Shown: positions 34,234 through 41,197 of the stretch, piece by piece | Position numbering within the stretch: the stretch's first letter is position 1 | Layout: every line of letters begins with the position of its first letter | From: a bacterium | GTDB taxonomy: Bacteria; Verrucomicrobiota; Verrucomicrobiia; Chthoniobacterales; UBA6821 | Length of the DNA stretch: 64,000 bases | Assembly: GCA_021849805.1 (NCBI GenBank) | Contig: JAJZSL010000001.1 | Span: forward strand, 62,001 to 126,000 | Reading direction: 5' to 3' | Made by a program: the position numbers and the translations under genes | The notes under the pieces: model-generated | The model's database searches: none | The model's input: only the letters and a program-made list of their open reading frames with translations | Told to the model about the DNA's origin: nothing

Positions 34234-35244
34234 TTAGAGAGAAACTCTTTTTTTAAAAGAGTCAGTATTAAGAATGATTTCTTCAAGGACTTGGGGAAGT
34301 GATTTAGTGGCAATCCAAGAGAAGTCTTTCTCAAAAGCACTTCCATCAACAACCCAGCGCTGCTCCAACATTTCTTTAACGCGATCGCGCCCAAGGCTAG
34401 GATAGGCATCTTGGAGTGCTGGAATTTGATCCAGAATCATTGATAAGAACTTGATGATGAAATGAGGTAGCCGCAATGTAACTCCAGGACTCTTGAGAAG
34501 AGCTGCCGTTGTTTCTAAGAGTTCTAAGTCAGTTATGCTCTTTTGATTTGCTACAAAATAGAGCTGCCCTGAGAGCTTCCTCCACTCTTGCTTAGCAGCA
34601 AGCAGAAGAGCACGACATAAATCATCCACAGCTATCCAACTATATTCTTTTTTAAAGAAACCTGGCTTCACACGTAGAGAGGAGTTTGCCATTTTGAGAA
34701 GAGGAAGAATAGCACGATCACCAGGCCCAAGAATCATGGGGGGACGAAGCAGGAGAAGTCGCTCTGGCAGGCGTGCTAGTAGCTCTTTCTCCATAGCAAG
34801 TTTAGATTCTCCATACCAAGTGATGGGTGCAGGAAGATCTTGCTCCCGAAGTATCTGCTTTGGCTCTCTGGTTGGCCCAGCAGCCGATTGAGAGGAGAGA
34901 GCAAGAAAGCGAGATTTTTCGGGAAGAGCTTCTAGAAGGTGAAGTGTACTCTTCACATTGCTCTGAAAATAATCAGCTCGATGTCGAGCAAAGAGGAGTC
35001 CTGCAGCATGGATGACCACCTCCGTTTCTTGAGCAAGAGGAGGCAAGAGCCATCGATTCTCAACAACAGGGCAGGGGAGAAGACGATGATCTTGAGGAGG
35101 AATGCTATCTTGGCGCAGCTGCTGCTGAAGTTTTTCTGGATTACGAACTGGAAGAATAATCGTTGAGAATGTTCTATCGTTGAGAGCCTGGAGCAGGAGA
35201 TGTCGTCCTAGAAAACCTGTAGAACCAGTAATAAGGAGCTTCAT
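34234..35244 (-). CDS. NAD(P)-dependent epimerase-like dehydrogenase, probable ceramide reductase (CerR-like)
   Basis: Extended SDR with TGSTGFLGRHLL near the N-terminus and a catalytic WYGESK (Tyr-x-x-x-Lys) preceded by LALSSQSAAGP. About 336 residues from ATG 35244 (a TTG precedes it). In Caulobacter, ceramide synthesis needs Spt, a GNAT-like ceramide synthase and an NAD-dependent epimerase-like reductase CerR. The same three types of gene lie in a row here on one strand, so I infer that this one reduces the oxidised ceramide. Taken alone, it could act on another substrate. Confidence 0.65.
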   Translation of the reverse strand: MKLLITGSTGFLGRHLLLQALNDRTFSTIILPVRNPEKLQQQLRQDSIPPQDHRLLPCPVVENRWLLPPLAQETEVVIHAAGLLFARHRADYFQSNVKSTLHLLEALPEKSRFLALSSQSAAGPTREPKQILREQDLPAPITWYGESKLAMEKELLARLPERLLLLRPPMILGPGDRAILPLLKMANSSLRVKPGFFKKEYSWIAVDDLCRALLLAAKQEWRKLSGQLYFVANQKSITDLELLETTAALLKSPGVTLRLPHFIIKFLSMILDQIPALQDAYPSLGRDRVKEMLEQRWVVDGSAFEKDFSWIATKSLPQVLEEIILNTDSFKKRVSL

Positions 35245-35314
35245 CAATGCGTAAGTAGAGAAGAGAAGATCTGCTCAAGAGCTAAGAGCTGGCGTGCCCT
35301 CCATGCTCTGACTC

Positions 35315-36487
35315 TTAAGTAGGAGAGCAAATTTCTCCGATTGTTTTTTCAAAAATTTCGTAAGTCTTATCCTGATAGCCACCCATGAGCTGGGCCCCCT
35401 CCAAGATCTCAACATTATTAGCTTCCACCCAAGAAACTTCAGAACGCTCATAACGAGCTTTAGTTCGAACATAGGCTTCATAGAAGAGAAGAGCACTCAA
35501 TCCTTTATTTTGATGTTCTGGATCGACTCCAAGAACACACAGACGAGCACTCTTAGGGCGTTGAATTTGGATTCGTAGAGCTATTTCTAAGAATCGCAAT
35601 AGACCTCGGCGAGGACGCGCTGCATGAAAAAGCTCATTGACATTGGGGAGAGAGAGGCTAAAGGCGACTTCCTGATCATCTAAGCAAGCGAAGAGAATAA
35701 GGTTGGGGTCCGCGATAGCTTTTAAATCCTTAGCTGCATGTCGGAGATCTTCTAGGGAAATGGGATAGAAGCCCCAGTTACGGTTTAGTGTTACATTATA
35801 GAGGCGATGAAGAATCTTCATTTCGTGCTCAAGATCATTCATTCTAATGCTACGAATCGTTACTCGAGAGCGTCGAGCAAGCCGATCAACAATTTTGTTA
35901 ACACGAGCGGGTGTTGCTGCTTGGAGAGGAATCATCCAAGCGTAGAGTATTCTGACGGATGCTAAGCCAGCAGCAGCATAGAGTTCACGGTAGTAAGGAG
36001 GATTCCATGGCATGGAAATGAAAGCAGGAGTATCAAATCCTTCTGTTAGTAAGCCACAATCATCATTAATAGAAGGATTGTAGGGCCCCCTTAGTGAGGT
36101 CATGCCATGGGCTCGAAGAATCTCTGCAGCTTTTTCAAAGAGAGCCTTAGCAACTTGAGGATCATCAACAGAGTCAAAAAACCCAAAAAAGCCAACACGA
36201 TCTTTATGATAGTCGTTGTGCGAGCGATTGATGATTGCTGCAATACGTCCTAGTGGTTTTCCATGGGCAGTTGCTATCAAGGGAAAAATTTTCCCGTGCT
36301 CTTGGGTGAAGACCCCACGTGGTTGGATCAGTTGAACAACACTACCGGGAAAGGGTGGCGTAAAGTTCGGATTCTTGCAGTGTAGTAACTCGGGAATCTG
36401 CTCGAAGCGATGAAACTCGCTCTTGCTCTGGCAAGGCAAAATCGAAAACGTTGCGACGGCGGCCTGGTTCGGTGTAGACGGGATCAT
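35315..36487 (-). CDS. GNAT-fold N-acyltransferase, probable bacterial ceramide synthase (bCerS-like)
   Basis: About 390-residue protein of the GNAT superfamily type that is found beside bacterial serine palmitoyltransferase. It begins with the family's opening (KSEFHRFEQIPELLH, then PNFTPPFPG), carries GRIAAIINRSHNDYH and GFFGFFDSVDDPQVAKALFE, RGPYNPSINDDCG and a final acyl-CoA region with CVLGVDPEHQNKGLSALL. bCerS acylates the amino group of the sphingoid precursor. The ATG at 36487 has an AGGAA 6 bases upstream, which supports this start although it lies 146 nt inside the spt gene. A peptidoglycan or other acyl acceptor remains possible. Confidence 0.7.
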   Translation of the reverse strand: MIPSTPNQAAVATFSILPCQSKSEFHRFEQIPELLHCKNPNFTPPFPGSVVQLIQPRGVFTQEHGKIFPLIATAHGKPLGRIAAIINRSHNDYHKDRVGFFGFFDSVDDPQVAKALFEKAAEILRAHGMTSLRGPYNPSINDDCGLLTEGFDTPAFISMPWNPPYYRELYAAAGLASVRILYAWMIPLQAATPARVNKIVDRLARRSRVTIRSIRMNDLEHEMKILHRLYNVTLNRNWGFYPISLEDLRHAAKDLKAIADPNLILFACLDDQEVAFSLSLPNVNELFHAARPRRGLLRFLEIALRIQIQRPKSARLCVLGVDPEHQNKGLSALLFYEAYVRTKARYERSEVSWVEANNVEILEGAQLMGGYQDKTYEIFEKTIGEICSPT

Positions 36488-37673
36488 CAAAGGTTCCTAG
36501 TTCACGGGCTAATTTTTCAAAAACTTCTAAAATAAAATTAAGATCATTCTCAGTGTGTGTCGACATGAAGCTAGTGCGTACAATAGCCTCTCCATAGCGT
36601 ACAGCAGGATAAATAGCGGGAGTAGCAAAAATTCCTTCCTCAAAAAGTCGTTGTGAGAAGGTAAATGCCTTTGCTTCACTTCCAATGAGAATAGGCACAA
36701 TGGGAGTCTGTGTGGAACCAATATTAAATCCAATAGATTTGAATCCAGCATGCATTTTATGGGTATTCATCCAGAGTTGCTCGATACGCTCTGGCTCTTG
36801 GCGCATGAGCTCTAACGCTTTGAGTACACCACCTACCACAGCAGGTGCTAGGGCAGCGGTGAAAATAAAACAGCGAGCTTTGTGCTTGAGAAATTCAATC
36901 ATCTCCTGAGAACCAGCAATGAAGCCACCCATGGAGCCAAGTGATTTCGAAAAAGTTCCCATCATGATTTCTACTTCATCATTAATTCCAAAATGATGAG
37001 CAGTACCACGACCTTGAGGTCCGAGTACTCCTAACGAATGTGCTTCGTCAACGTAAGTGATGGCACCATATTCCTTGGCGATTGGCAGAAGAGCAGGAAG
37101 ATCAGCAATATCTCCTGACATGCTGAAAACACCATCCATAATAACAAGCTTTCCTGACTCTTCCGGTAAACGTTTAAGACGATTACGAAGAGCCATGGCG
37201 GAATTGTGACGATAAGGGATCAAGCGTGCCACGGAAGTTTGACATCCTTCAATAATACTTGCATGGTTTTCTCGATCACAGAGAATAGCATCCTCTGCTT
37301 CCAGAAGAGCAGTTAAAGCTCCTTGATTAGCAAAAAATCCTGTAGAGAAGAGAAGAACTGCTTCACGCTGTAGAAAATCAGCGAGTTGTGCTTCAAGTTC
37401 CTCATGCAAGCGGATGGTTCCATTGAGCAGACGAGAACCAGTACAGCCAGCTCCAAAGCGACGCGTTGCCTCACAAGCTGCTTCAATAACACGAGGATCT
37501 TGAGCTAGTCCTAAGTAGTTATTGGAACCAATCATGATTTTCTCAGCACCTTGACAGAGAACATGATTGCCGTAACTATCATCAATGCATCTGAAATAAG
37601 GGTAGAATCCTTGAGCTCGTGCATCGTCTGAGTCACGATATTCCCGGCATTTTTTAAAAAGATCTTTGGCCAT
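36342..37673 (-). CDS. spt: Serine palmitoyltransferase (alpha-oxoamine synthase)
   Basis: PLP enzyme that condenses L-serine with an acyl-CoA to 3-ketosphinganine, the first step of sphingolipid synthesis. The SPT-type N-terminus is clear (AQGFYPYFRCIDDSYGN, then GSNNYLGL and GSRLLNGT). His137 stacks on PLP, Asp209 and His212 are in YVDEAHSLGVLG, and the PLP Lys243 is in GTFSKSLGSMGG. The conserved core ends near residue 393; about 50 more residues are encoded over the start of the acyltransferase gene. Related synthases (BioF, KBL) are less likely because of the YPYF motif and the neighbours. Confidence 0.85.
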   Translation of the reverse strand: MAKDLFKKCREYRDSDDARAQGFYPYFRCIDDSYGNHVLCQGAEKIMIGSNNYLGLAQDPRVIEAACEATRRFGAGCTGSRLLNGTIRLHEELEAQLADFLQREAVLLFSTGFFANQGALTALLEAEDAILCDRENHASIIEGCQTSVARLIPYRHNSAMALRNRLKRLPEESGKLVIMDGVFSMSGDIADLPALLPIAKEYGAITYVDEAHSLGVLGPQGRGTAHHFGINDEVEIMMGTFSKSLGSMGGFIAGSQEMIEFLKHKARCFIFTAALAPAVVGGVLKALELMRQEPERIEQLWMNTHKMHAGFKSIGFNIGSTQTPIVPILIGSEAKAFTFSQRLFEEGIFATPAIYPAVRYGEAIVRTSFMSTHTENDLNFILEVFEKLARELGTFDDPVYTEPGRRRNVFDFALPEQERVSSLRADSRVTTLQESELYATLSR

Positions 37674-37863: not shown

Positions 37864-39060
37864 CTAATGCAAGCTTAGCATTCTCTTGAGGGTTTTTAGA
37901 GAATCAAAATACTCCACGGCTGTCGCTCGTGCTAGCTTGGAGAGGCGTGGCCAATCCAAAATTACTTCTGCAGAAGCTTCGATGGCTTCTTGAAGTGTTT
38001 TTACAAAGAAGAGGCCGCTTTCACTTCCAGAAGGGGGAAGAAAACGCTCGGCTCCAGTGGGCTCCGTAATCACTGGGCGCCCTATCGCTAAGTAAGCAGC
38101 AGCACGATCACTGAGCCAGCCACTTTGCATTTTACTCTCTAGCTTTACAGCAGTGAATTCTGCTAGCGAGCTCTTTAGATAGTCATAATAGCGCTTGGGA
38201 GTTGGCATCAAATGATGAGGAGAGAGTACATGCCATCCTAGTTTTTCAAGGCGCTTTCTCTCTGGATCGTCTGCATTGAGGTTCATGGCCAGCTCAAAAG
38301 TAGCTTCAGGAAGATGCTCTGGCAAGGTGAGGTAAGGCTCAAAAGCAACTTTTTTTGAAAAATCAGGGTACTCCCCTTCGATTTCAACATGGCCATCCCA
38401 GTACCATTGGCCAACGGTGGTGAAACGAGGGGATCCCTGGAAGATCGGTTTGGGCTCTGCTTGAAGAAAAGCAGTATCCACTAGTGGAAAAAAAGACTTC
38501 CAGGTTACCAGGCTTTTGGGGATGCGTGAATCGATGGAATCCATGCATAAACCTACTGACCAGAATTCATGATGAAATGATTGTCCCATTTCCATACGAC
38601 TCATCCAAAAGAGAACTTCTGTTGGGTCGAGACTGCAGAGCAAGCGACGCTCAAAGAGCATGAGTAGTGGTGGCTTGATAGAATAACTCAAATTCAGAAG
38701 GACTCCCTGCTTAGCCTCTTGTCGTAAGGTTGAGGGATCTACTCCAAAGCTTTTCATTTGCGAGAGATCATATTCTTCTGAGTTTTTGTTCTGAAGTGCT
38801 TTGGGGTGGATGAGTAGAGAGTATTCAATGTCATACTCCTTCATTCTCCTCACAAAAGTACGCACACAAAAAGCATCTCGAGTGGGATCGTTACTCTCAG
38901 GCATGACCTCTAGCCAAATAGCACGAGTACCAAGCCGCTTTAGTCCTAATAAATATTGCAGTGGAACAGAAAAATTTCCTCCTCCCTCTGGATATTTGGC
39001 AGCAAAGCCACAGCCAACAAAAACGGTAGGAAGATTGGAGGAAGTAGTAGGAGAAGACAT
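37864..39060 (-). CDS. GT-B-like glycosyltransferase, member of the sphingolipid locus
   Basis: About 398 residues, no signal peptide. The N-terminus TVFVGCGFAAKYPEGGGNFSVPLQYLLGLKRLG reads like a GT-B Rossmann strand and glycine loop. The C-terminal third has the segment SGWLSDRAAAYLAIGRPV, then ITEPTG, which recurs in the second glycosyltransferase-like gene (41239-42417). It lies 190 bases upstream of spt on the same strand. I infer that it adds a sugar to ceramide or another lipid. ATG 39060 is preferred; a TTG seven codons upstream is in frame. No classified family is recognised with certainty. Confidence 0.55.
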   Translation of the reverse strand: MSSPTTSSNLPTVFVGCGFAAKYPEGGGNFSVPLQYLLGLKRLGTRAIWLEVMPESNDPTRDAFCVRTFVRRMKEYDIEYSLLIHPKALQNKNSEEYDLSQMKSFGVDPSTLRQEAKQGVLLNLSYSIKPPLLMLFERRLLCSLDPTEVLFWMSRMEMGQSFHHEFWSVGLCMDSIDSRIPKSLVTWKSFFPLVDTAFLQAEPKPIFQGSPRFTTVGQWYWDGHVEIEGEYPDFSKKVAFEPYLTLPEHLPEATFELAMNLNADDPERKRLEKLGWHVLSPHHLMPTPKRYYDYLKSSLAEFTAVKLESKMQSGWLSDRAAAYLAIGRPVITEPTGAERFLPPSGSESGLFFVKTLQEAIEASAEVILDWPRLSKLARATAVEYFDSLKTLKRMLSLH

Positions 39061-39283
39061 CAGCTGGGAAGTATTCTCCAATTTTGAAAAAAGAAAAGCT
39101 TTTCAAACTTATTCATTGATTCTTGGGAGAAGATGTTTGTAAAGATAGAAAAGTGAATCAGGATTTTCAAAAAATATGCTCTCTCCACGAGAAGAGCTTC
39201 CGCCAAAAACAATGGAAGGAACATGAGCATCATCAATTTTTTTAATCTAGCTGACACTGTTAATTATCAGCCGTGTAACAAGT

Positions 39284-41197
39284 ATGTCCTCGAACTTCGA
39301 TGTGCGTTCTACCAGCAGTGAAGGTGCTCAACGTTCTTCGAGCTTTCATGCTCAGCGTACCGATAAGTCTTTCAATAGCGAAGAGAGTGAATTTGGTAAC
39401 TTAGCAGGAATCGGGGTTAGTGAGAATTCAGCAGCAGAAAAACCTTTTTATGATCGATGGATGAGAGGTTTTGGAAGTGTGGTGAGTTGGTTGTTTGGCT
39501 TTCATCGATCAGAAGGGAGTCCAGTAGGTAAGTTAGAAAAGATCGAACCTGTTCCAAAATGTATCCCGAGGAAAAATATCTTCCAAGCTAATGACGATCA
39601 AAAAGAGAAGATCAGTGCTGAATTCCAAAAGGCCCTCACTCAACATTTTCAAGATTCTTTAAATAATTCATCATCCAGCAGTCTTCCAGATAGTAGTGAT
39701 GATCAACAAAGAAGAAAAGAGACAGAGTATCTCTATGCCTTTCCAACTCAATTAGAAGGTGGTGCTACTAATAGACAAATATGCGATGCTGATGAAAATA
39801 TTTCAAAAGCTGATGGTGAACTTACGCATTCTCGAACAGATGGAGATACAGTGATTCCATCAAATCATGGAACTCCGTTGGATACATTTAATAACGATCT
39901 CAATGAATTTGATAACGCTCTAAAAGAATACTGTGGTGATTTTTTAGAAGCATACAAATTTTGTGTTGCTTCAAACACAATTGCCATCATTCCCGCAGAG
40001 TTGATGATGAAGTTGCCCTCAGAGGACAAGTTGTCAGAGGACAAGTTGCCAATAATGGCATTTTCAGATAAAAAGCGCTTTGCTAAGGTGAGTAGAGAAA
40101 CTTCACCAGAAGGAGAAATCACATCGCTAACAGTGAGATTGGAGTTAGCAGGCGAAGAGACTCCTACAGCATTTCCAGATCCTATCAAAGATTTAGAAAA
40201 CTATGTTGCAGATACAAGGTCGGTTTTCTCATTAACCTTTCGCAAGAAGGAGACTGTAGACAGGGATGACTCACCAATTTCCGTAACCTGCAACCACGTT
40301 GAAAACCGCTATGAGCTTCTCCCTAATGTTAAGGAAACAATCATAACAAGTTCTCAGGAGATAACATTAGGTGCCATAAATCAAGGTGGACATAACGTCT
40401 GCTGGTTAAGAGCAATCATTCCAATGAGCTCTTCCTTTCAAGGAGGTGTGAATGAGAGAAAAGCGCTAGAGAAAAAGCTTGATCAGTCGTTAGTTTCTCA
40501 GTCGTTAGTTCCAGTAGAAGCTTCAAGATCAGCATCGAGTCATCCTTTAGAGAGTGAGCCTGCTGATCCGTTATTGACTACACTTCTGGGAGAAAAAACT
40601 CAATGTTTCATCGATGGTGAGATGATAGGGACCATGAACGAACTATCAACTTTTTGCGGCGATGCTACTGACACAATGATCAGGCTGATGAGTAGGAATG
40701 TAGCAGCGATGGCTCAGGAGGTACTAGATGATTATCTAAAAGAAGAAGCGCAAGCAGGTCAATTATATGGCCTTCTTGAGGGGGGTGGTACTCCGACTGA
40801 CACTGGAAATAGCAAAAATAACAATCATCAGCGCTTTGAAATTAACAAAAGAACTAATCTCAATGGTGATGGCGTCCTCAGTGTCAAATTTTATACTCAG
40901 GGCGAATTAAAGTCAGTCTATCGTAAGGGAGCGCAAGGGAAGGAACTTGATCAAATCGATCTTGAACCCTCTCGCATACAAGCTGCTATTTTCGACGAAG
41001 ATGACAAAGAATTAATTCTCAACTCCAGAAAAACTGCAGAAATAGCAGTGACCTTGGAGCTTATAAAAGGAGAGAGCATAGGGAATCAAACGCCATCTTA
41101 CTCTATAAATTGTAGAGAATTCTCCCATCATTATAAAATTAAGAAATTATCAAAATGGAGTCGCTGGATTCGGAGTTTTGTAAACTGGAAAAGATAA
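39284..41197 (+). CDS. Large unknown protein inserted in the sphingolipid locus
   Basis: Not recognised. 637 residues on the strand opposite to its neighbours. It starts MSSNFDVRSTSSEGAQRSSS, Ser-rich and probably disordered, with no signal peptide. At 60-73 there is a hydrophobic patch (MRGFGSVVSWLFGF), and near the C-terminus a Trp/basic patch (LSKWSRWIRSFVNWKR). A 15-base unit is tandemly repeated at 40019-40048. Between lie two regions with similar polar beta-type segments (residues about 275-300 and 540-560, for example SLTVRLELAGEE and LSVKFYTQGEL). The SWLFG element recurs in the unknown gene at 51978. A signal-less secreted protein or scaffold is possible. Confidence 0.7.
   Translation: MSSNFDVRSTSSEGAQRSSSFHAQRTDKSFNSEESEFGNLAGIGVSENSAAEKPFYDRWMRGFGSVVSWLFGFHRSEGSPVGKLEKIEPVPKCIPRKNIFQANDDQKEKISAEFQKALTQHFQDSLNNSSSSSLPDSSDDQQRRKETEYLYAFPTQLEGGATNRQICDADENISKADGELTHSRTDGDTVIPSNHGTPLDTFNNDLNEFDNALKEYCGDFLEAYKFCVASNTIAIIPAELMMKLPSEDKLSEDKLPIMAFSDKKRFAKVSRETSPEGEITSLTVRLELAGEETPTAFPDPIKDLENYVADTRSVFSLTFRKKETVDRDDSPISVTCNHVENRYELLPNVKETIITSSQEITLGAINQGGHNVCWLRAIIPMSSSFQGGVNERKALEKKLDQSLVSQSLVPVEASRSASSHPLESEPADPLLTTLLGEKTQCFIDGEMIGTMNELSTFCGDATDTMIRLMSRNVAAMAQEVLDDYLKEEAQAGQLYGLLEGGGTPTDTGNSKNNNHQRFEINKRTNLNGDGVLSVKFYTQGELKSVYRKGAQGKELDQIDLEPSRIQAAIFDEDDKELILNSRKTAEIAVTLELIKGESIGNQTPSYSINCREFSHHYKIKKLSKWSRWIRSFVNWKR
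40019..40048 (+). repeat. 15-nt exact tandem repeat in the unknown 637-residue gene
   Basis: The unit TCAGAGGACAAGTTG occurs twice in tandem and encodes SEDKL twice. It keeps the reading frame, suggesting a slippage duplication in a flexible region. Confidence 0.85.

Follow-up and report, generated by a model that had tools for sequence, protein, structure and literature searches.

Can two conserved enzymes be read in different frames from the same 146 nucleotides of bacterial DNA, and is that stretch maintained for both of them? The question is raised by a locus in a 64,000-nt stretch of a Chthoniobacterales genome (contig JAJZSL010000001.1; the window is this whole stretch), where the end of a serine palmitoyltransferase (SPT)-type gene runs into the start of an acyltransferase gene on the minus strand. 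In the survey of PMC2478687, all 715 of 715 co-directional overlaps longer than 60 bp were assigned to misannotation categories, some being possibly real but unconserved, and co-directional overlaps longer than 59 bp were left out of PMC3887535 on grounds of misannotation. Our literature search, which was of partial coverage, returned no description of an overlap between genes for SPT and ceramide synthase. Comparison of related sequences indicates that the overlap is very probably genuine, ancient and on one strand, with both proteins under selection.

The gene pair and its shared stretch

Three genes follow one another on the minus strand of the window: an SPT-type gene, an acyltransferase gene and an NAD-epimerase-type gene. 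The first, spt (36342..37673, stop included), encodes a serine palmitoyltransferase-type alpha-oxoamine synthase of 443 aa that matched Pfam Aminotran_1_2 (E = 2.4e-57) and whose top sequence matches in the PDB were the serine palmitoyltransferases 8guh and 3a2b (E ~1e-118), making it an alpha-oxoamine synthase sequence with SPT as its best match. We use the label SPT-type because the protein scored below the cut-offs of the NCBIfam SPT equivalogs: 482.8 bits against 640 for NF047600 (the best), 389 against 500 for NF047599 and 327.7 against 670 for NF047603. Lysine K243, which we take to have the PLP role, was invariant in alignment A1. Upstream of spt lie a 405-aa ORF (37864-39081, minus strand), for which neither Pfam nor NCBIfam gave a hit at E ≤ 0.001, and a 637-aa ORF (39284-41197, plus strand).

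The second gene (35315..36487, minus strand, stop included) encodes a GNAT-type acyltransferase of 390 aa that is bacterial ceramide synthase-like, hereafter CerS. By sequence it fell just short of the Pfam cut-off for Acetyltransf_1 (20.4 versus 20.7 bits), with no family above cut-off, no NCBIfam match and nothing among solved structures at E up to 1. Its predicted model (mean pLDDT 88) matched tandem GNAT structures (2wpw, E = 3.4e-14), so that the gene adjoining spt is a GNAT-type acyltransferase by its tandem GNAT folds. This model and the operon context would be compatible with the bacterial ceramide synthase of PMC11087976, and both overlapping genes probably make membrane lipids. The place of the ceramide reductase is taken by an NAD-dependent epimerase-type gene (34234..35247, minus strand; Epimerase, E = 1.9e-20).

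The two frames share 146 nt (36342..36487), with CerS in the +1 frame. The SPT stop, TAG (36344..36342), is built from the CerS Gly-Ser codons GGT AGT, and the CerS ATG (36487..36485) lies within SPT Asp396-Asp397 (GAT GAT). A Shine-Dalgarno (SD)-like AGGAA (36498..36494) falls within the codons for SPT Leu392 (CTA), Gly393 (GGA) and Thr394, six bases upstream of that ATG. A preliminary description of the locus had listed the 146-nt overlap, the start at 36487 and the AGGAA six bases before it, and these, like both ORFs and the end of SPT at 36342, proved as described.

Conservation among relatives

We searched for SPT in 58 relatives (56 with some match), at the level of the order (213 genomes, 60 of them with matches at E ≤ 1e-140), in a phylum sample (7 of 288 at E ≤ 1e-110), in a sample of the phylum to which L084, titled Bdellovibrio, belongs (113 of 290, of which the best 30 became loci), and across genome contigs (best 80 of 145 kept). 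Taxon names are those in the record titles. The first 142 loci gave 93 unique ones, of which 91 were placed in a quick tree; this tree does not fix how the main lineages of the overlap clade branched, and its outgroup does not form one branch side (two rows misplaced). Sequences counted throughout are related, and counts are accordingly not independent.

In one SPT clade, CerS reached into spt in 66 of 73 rows, so the overlap is conserved among orthologues, in records titled Spartobacteria or Chthoniobacterales and Bdellovibrionales or Deltaproteobacteria. The branch leading to this clade had an SH-aLRT of 99, and the overlap label changed 5 times on the tree, compared with a mean of 22.0 when shuffled. 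All 13 clade members from the Bdellovibrio-phylum search (L143-L154 and L164) likewise had the overlap. Within the window family (22 genomes yielding 20 full loci, with G003 lacking such an SPT and G020 left out as only a fragment), exactly 146 nt were kept in 17 of 20, and the remaining three, L003, L004 and L005 from the window's genus, had an earlier SPT stop at codon 420 that brings the overlap down to 74 nt and is probably recent. These three, ending at codon 420, are the closest relatives with an earlier stop; no close relative had the separate SPT stop near 36495 that the preliminary description had named as counting against the overlap. A sequencing frameshift or a misannotated start or stop, the reading that the 715 cases of PMC2478687 would favour a priori, has a vanishingly small chance of being correct here, given the same arrangement across many separately assembled genomes, the similar lengths of SPT and CerS in relatives and the codon signatures at both the internal start and the stop. 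We rejected a frameshift or assembly error on the grounds of conservation in many genomes.

Seven clade rows lacked the overlap: three with separated genes (L050, L052 and L114), three in which no CerS was found nearby (L030, L054 and L075) and L062. The absence in L075 is a contig-end effect: in L147, which seems to be the same record, an overlapping CerS can be seen to begin. The nested position of the separated rows within the clade makes a secondary loss of the overlap probable. L062 (4369-6685; L122 is the same place) carries a tandem CerS duplication downstream of a non-overlapping SPT whose end keeps a likeness to the once dual-coded tail (NGS..HS..PR); both tandem copies are open. In family f13 (L131-L141), the overlap is kept with an SPT tail that has no FDF motif and ends 54 nt short of the usual place.

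An epimerase-type homologue lay downstream of CerS in 17 of 18 window-family loci and 12 of 12 Bdellovibrionota-type loci, and it also follows CerS in L050, L052 and three f10 loci. No such homologue was found immediately downstream of CerS in 13 loci that had space for one among L047 and L053-L071 (f7 and f2), nor in three more (L060, L064 and L081).

The SPTs of the pairs in L072-L085, titled Bdellovibrionales, Deltaproteobacteria or Proteobacteria, were 61-70% identical to that of the window. Identities of 60-70% across records of two phyla suggest that the overlapping pair may have been transferred between phyla as a unit. Further out, 17 loci from the Bdellovibrio-phylum sample had SPT identities of 50-54%, and an SPT tail of the overlap type was not seen in any of these 17. 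CerS was found downstream in six, with starts taken from printed translations: four start after the SPT stop, L158 overlaps by 1 nt and L171 (51% SPT identity) overlaps by 8 nt in the same +1 frame. L171 could offer a picture of the forerunner of the overlap. A 4-nt overlap was present in L086.

Initiation of CerS inside spt

Codon choice in spt is unusual where the CerS start signals lie. CTA, which accounts for 4% of leucine codons elsewhere in both genes, encodes Leu392 in 18 of 20 family sequences; Gly393 is GGA in 16 of 20, and Asp396 is GAT in 20 of 20 against a background of 0.62. Among 42 aligned Chthoniobacterales, CTA was confined to sequences bearing the ATG (22 of 32, versus 0 of 10 without it). 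The 10 sequences without an ATG at this position require a start elsewhere, and neighboring ATGs occur in the same stretch in other lineages, for example in aATGGTTACGATTT. A start downstream of the overlap was ruled out for CerS: the overlap encodes the first strand and helix of the protein, and in separated relatives CerS opens just ahead of that strand.

The mRNA around the internal start (36453..36503) is predicted to be locally unstructured. This 51-nt stretch was less structured than spt-synonymous recodings in the window family (mean z +2.3, 19 of 20 positive; +1.64 in the window itself), in other Chthoniobacterales (+1.8, 21 of 22 positive) and in f13 (+1.3, 10 of 11 positive), compared with averages of -1.0 to +0.4 at nine upstream places in spt in the window family and other Chthoniobacterales. 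The six non-overlap relatives were also mildly unstructured at the same place (z +0.5 to +1.2, 6 of 6 positive), and part of the signal therefore belongs to spt itself. Bdellovibrionota-type loci, where the start is elsewhere, gave little signal in the two windows tested (mean z -0.11 and +0.32). Just past the CerS start (36453-36503; L001-L020), spt of the window family is enriched in A-ending, otherwise uncommon codons (CCA, GCA and ACA).

Internal initiation is the best model for CerS translation on these sequence signals. The preliminary description had proposed that the arrangement couples two consecutive steps of one pathway. The order of steps would fit by analogy with Caulobacter, for which a pathway with consecutive SPT and ceramide synthase steps, both cytoplasmic in the model, has been proposed (PMC11087976), and coupling by termination-reinitiation would gain its appeal from this. 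Reinitiation, as described in PMC10666635, uses a start no more than about 20 nt from the upstream stop and drops off over a range of about 20-40 nt; to reach the CerS start, a ribosome would need to move 146 nt upstream from the end of the SPT stop, and an SD dedicated to CerS is present. We consider that mechanism very unlikely. A programmed frameshift yielding an SPT-CerS fusion besides the separate proteins is extremely unlikely: geometry alone speaks for it, in that the two frames differ by +1 and neither is interrupted within the overlap, against kept start signals for a separate CerS and the existence of separated relatives.

Two parts of the SPT tail

We compared variability by codon position in the 20 window-family sequences and 22 other gapless Chthoniobacterales. 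As the preliminary description had suggested checking, the alignment shows variability changing from SPT third positions to CerS third positions, near 36431. In the family (n = 20), mean pairwise differences at SPT positions 1/2/3 were 0.09/0.06/0.29 in the first part and 0.40/0.18/0.16 in the second, with flanks of 0.08/0.06/0.51 upstream and 0.57/0.23/0.17 past the SPT stop. In the 22 other Chthoniobacterales, p+78 to p+120, where the distal tail begins, varied about evenly across codon positions (0.36/0.34/0.32).

The conserved SPT core had been described as ending close to 36495; conservation extends instead to about residue 415 (36429). This conserved tail segment (residues 396-415, DDPxYxxPGRR[RK]N[VI]FDFxL[PS]; 36429..36488) is recognizable in all six non-overlap relatives (L030, L050, L052, L054, L062 and L114), whose distal SPT ends differ, with the exception of the NGS..HS..PR-like end of L062. 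Across 34 tail-keeping sequences, SPT residues E391-F395, D397, P398, Y400, R405, R406, N408, F410, D411, F412 and L414 were invariant, and R424, S435 and S442 of the distal tail were nearly so. Confidence in the SPT model holds up to roughly residue 400 and then drops, with pLDDT of 62 for residues 401-410, 48 for 411-420 and <40 beyond, and residues 416-443 (pLDDT <50) are predicted to be disordered.

The CerS leader, residues 1-12, coincides with the conserved SPT segment. In the CerS model, residues 1-10 are disordered and order begins at the strand of residues 15-18; this first strand and the helix of residues 22-36 fall in the overlap and are predicted with confidence, and the N-terminal segment of the acyltransferase is conserved inside the overlap, as initially described. 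Between 36429 and 36451 both frames are conserved, with SPT NVFDFALP over the CerS first-strand region TFSILPCQ. Conservation and models together indicate that the first part of the overlap is used by SPT, the second by CerS and about 36451-36429 by both. The distal SPT tail (residues 416-443 plus stop; 36342..36428) covers the CerS core from its first helix to PPFPGS and, though predicted to be disordered in SPT, is constrained.

Selection on the distal tail

The SPT frame was open as far as the CerS Gly-Ser codons in 41 of 66 sequences, of which 38 stop exactly there with GGT AGY and three run on. The other 25 stop earlier, so the distal tail is dispensable in places. GGT makes up 15-20% of glycine codons as background and stood at this site in 38 of the 41 open sequences versus 2 of the 25 earlier-stopping ones (Fisher p = 2e-12, relatedness ignored). 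Synonymous recoding of CerS in the two main groups placed an SPT stop at the observed spot in ~1% of draws. The actual stop lies there in 17 of 20 and 18 of 23 members of these groups, 3 of 12 Bdellovibrionota-type sequences and 0 of 11 from f13, counts of related sequences to which no probability is attached.

For silent changes, we compared the last 16 CerS codons up to the SPT stop with those after it, expressed as a fraction of saturation. In 19 tail-keeping pairs, CerS-silent changes amounted to 32/145.1 (0.22) inside and 391/504.4 (0.78) after the stop, the inside value being lower in 19 of 19. In 12 truncated pairs, the corresponding values were 48/83.9 (0.57) and 193/288.9 (0.67), with inside lower in 7 of 12, and none of the 5 pairs of separated relatives had a lower silent-site value inside (one pair gave 7/6.6 there and 19/28.6 beyond the stop). 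In a set picked by hand, the values were 0.20 inside versus 0.77 just after, and 0.68 versus 0.64 when truncated. Maintenance of an open frame and an intact stop would explain little of this freeze (27 changes seen versus 117.6 expected). In f13, with its SPT stop at p+111, the silent ratio was 0.18 just before that stop and 0.63 after, so the dip tracks the group's own stop. Because silent sites are nearly frozen over the translated tail and hardly reduced where it is truncated, both frames appear to be under purifying selection across the shared stretch, and the distal tail appears to be selected as protein where present, having been shortened in several lineages.

We had first read the distal tail as a mere passenger, a product of a lost SPT stop and an accidental read into CerS with only CerS selected, and abandoned this after the silent-site comparisons. 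Variability that tracks CerS codon positions in the distal part, predicted disorder in SPT and the earlier stops in 25 of 66 sequences all agree with a passenger; near-frozen CerS-silent sites under the translated tail, bounded by the SPT stop and hardly reduced where the tail is truncated, do not, nor does the keeping of the stop itself, and we regard a passenger as quite unlikely. It is distinctly unlikely that the frozen stretch is instead a DNA or RNA element, such as a regulatory site or structure. In its favor, many tail-keeping lineages show hardly any variation around ACGGATCCG, although the window differs there. Constraint ends at the SPT stop wherever that is located, and an element would have to fade with the tail; the distal stretch has no plus-strand ORF of at least 60 aa; and the distal mRNA tends towards less structure than its recodings rather than more (family mean z +1.05, 18 of 19 positive), which leaves RNA structure in this part unsupported.

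Selection in both halves supports a functional tail, one of the two options in the preliminary description. The other, a lost SPT stop followed by an overprinted tail, holds insofar as the tail was gained relative to more distant SPTs, but that gain is old, and the first half persists without the overlap.

Discussion

Comparison supports a C-terminal extension of SPT in this clade, one that continues into the following gene, which lies in the +1 frame. On a single mRNA, CerS would be initiated independently at the SD and ATG inside spt, probably assisted by the unstructured start region, and ribosomes on spt would pass through the CerS start to the TAG at 36342. The SPT tail would then form a flexible extension, possibly a partner or membrane contact, or possibly just a harmless stable end. 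More specifically, the disordered, overprinted tail might tether SPT to the acyltransferase or keep the two enzymes at the membrane; this we think rather unlikely, but if true, the DNA that starts the second enzyme would also encode the part of the first that contacts it.

Several known systems bear comparison. Short overlaps on one strand are common. Short operon overlaps of 4 nt or 1 nt (PMC10666635) likewise involve adjacent co-directional genes, here probably of one pathway and on one mRNA from a putative operon, whereas the present overlap is 146 nt, its downstream start has its own SD and the tail itself appears selected. Long phase-1 co-directional overlaps (PMC2478687, PMC3887535), for which an origin by extension of the upstream gene has been described, share the strand and phase class (the -8, -11, -14 ... 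series); unlike those surveyed in PMC2478687, the SPT/CerS case is conserved and apparently selected in both frames. In rnpA-rpmH of Thermus (PMC9841429), two real bacterial proteins also come from one DNA stretch in two frames, but those genes are nested and share one initiation site, whereas SPT and CerS overlap end to end with separate starts. The Caulobacter genes spt, bcerS and cerR (PMC11087976) would represent the same three enzyme kinds, and the abstract of that source mentions no overlap. SPT of Sphingobacterium multivorum (8guh and 3a2b; PMC10196870) has the same core fold, alignable over query residues 5-388, and at 398 residues is described there without such a tail.

The SPT/CerS pair thus belongs to a known class of overlapping genes, within which the comparative evidence makes it an unusually well supported case that is long, ancient and doubly selected. 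Involving two conserved enzymes, and marked in its codons by the internal start, the upstream stop and both frames, it is a strong candidate for a counter-example to the view of long overlaps as misannotation, and gene callers that do not allow overlaps of such length may trim genuine protein ends. Among its relatives, the overlap is found kept, shortened and absent, states that allow direct tests of how dual coding originates, is maintained and is resolved.
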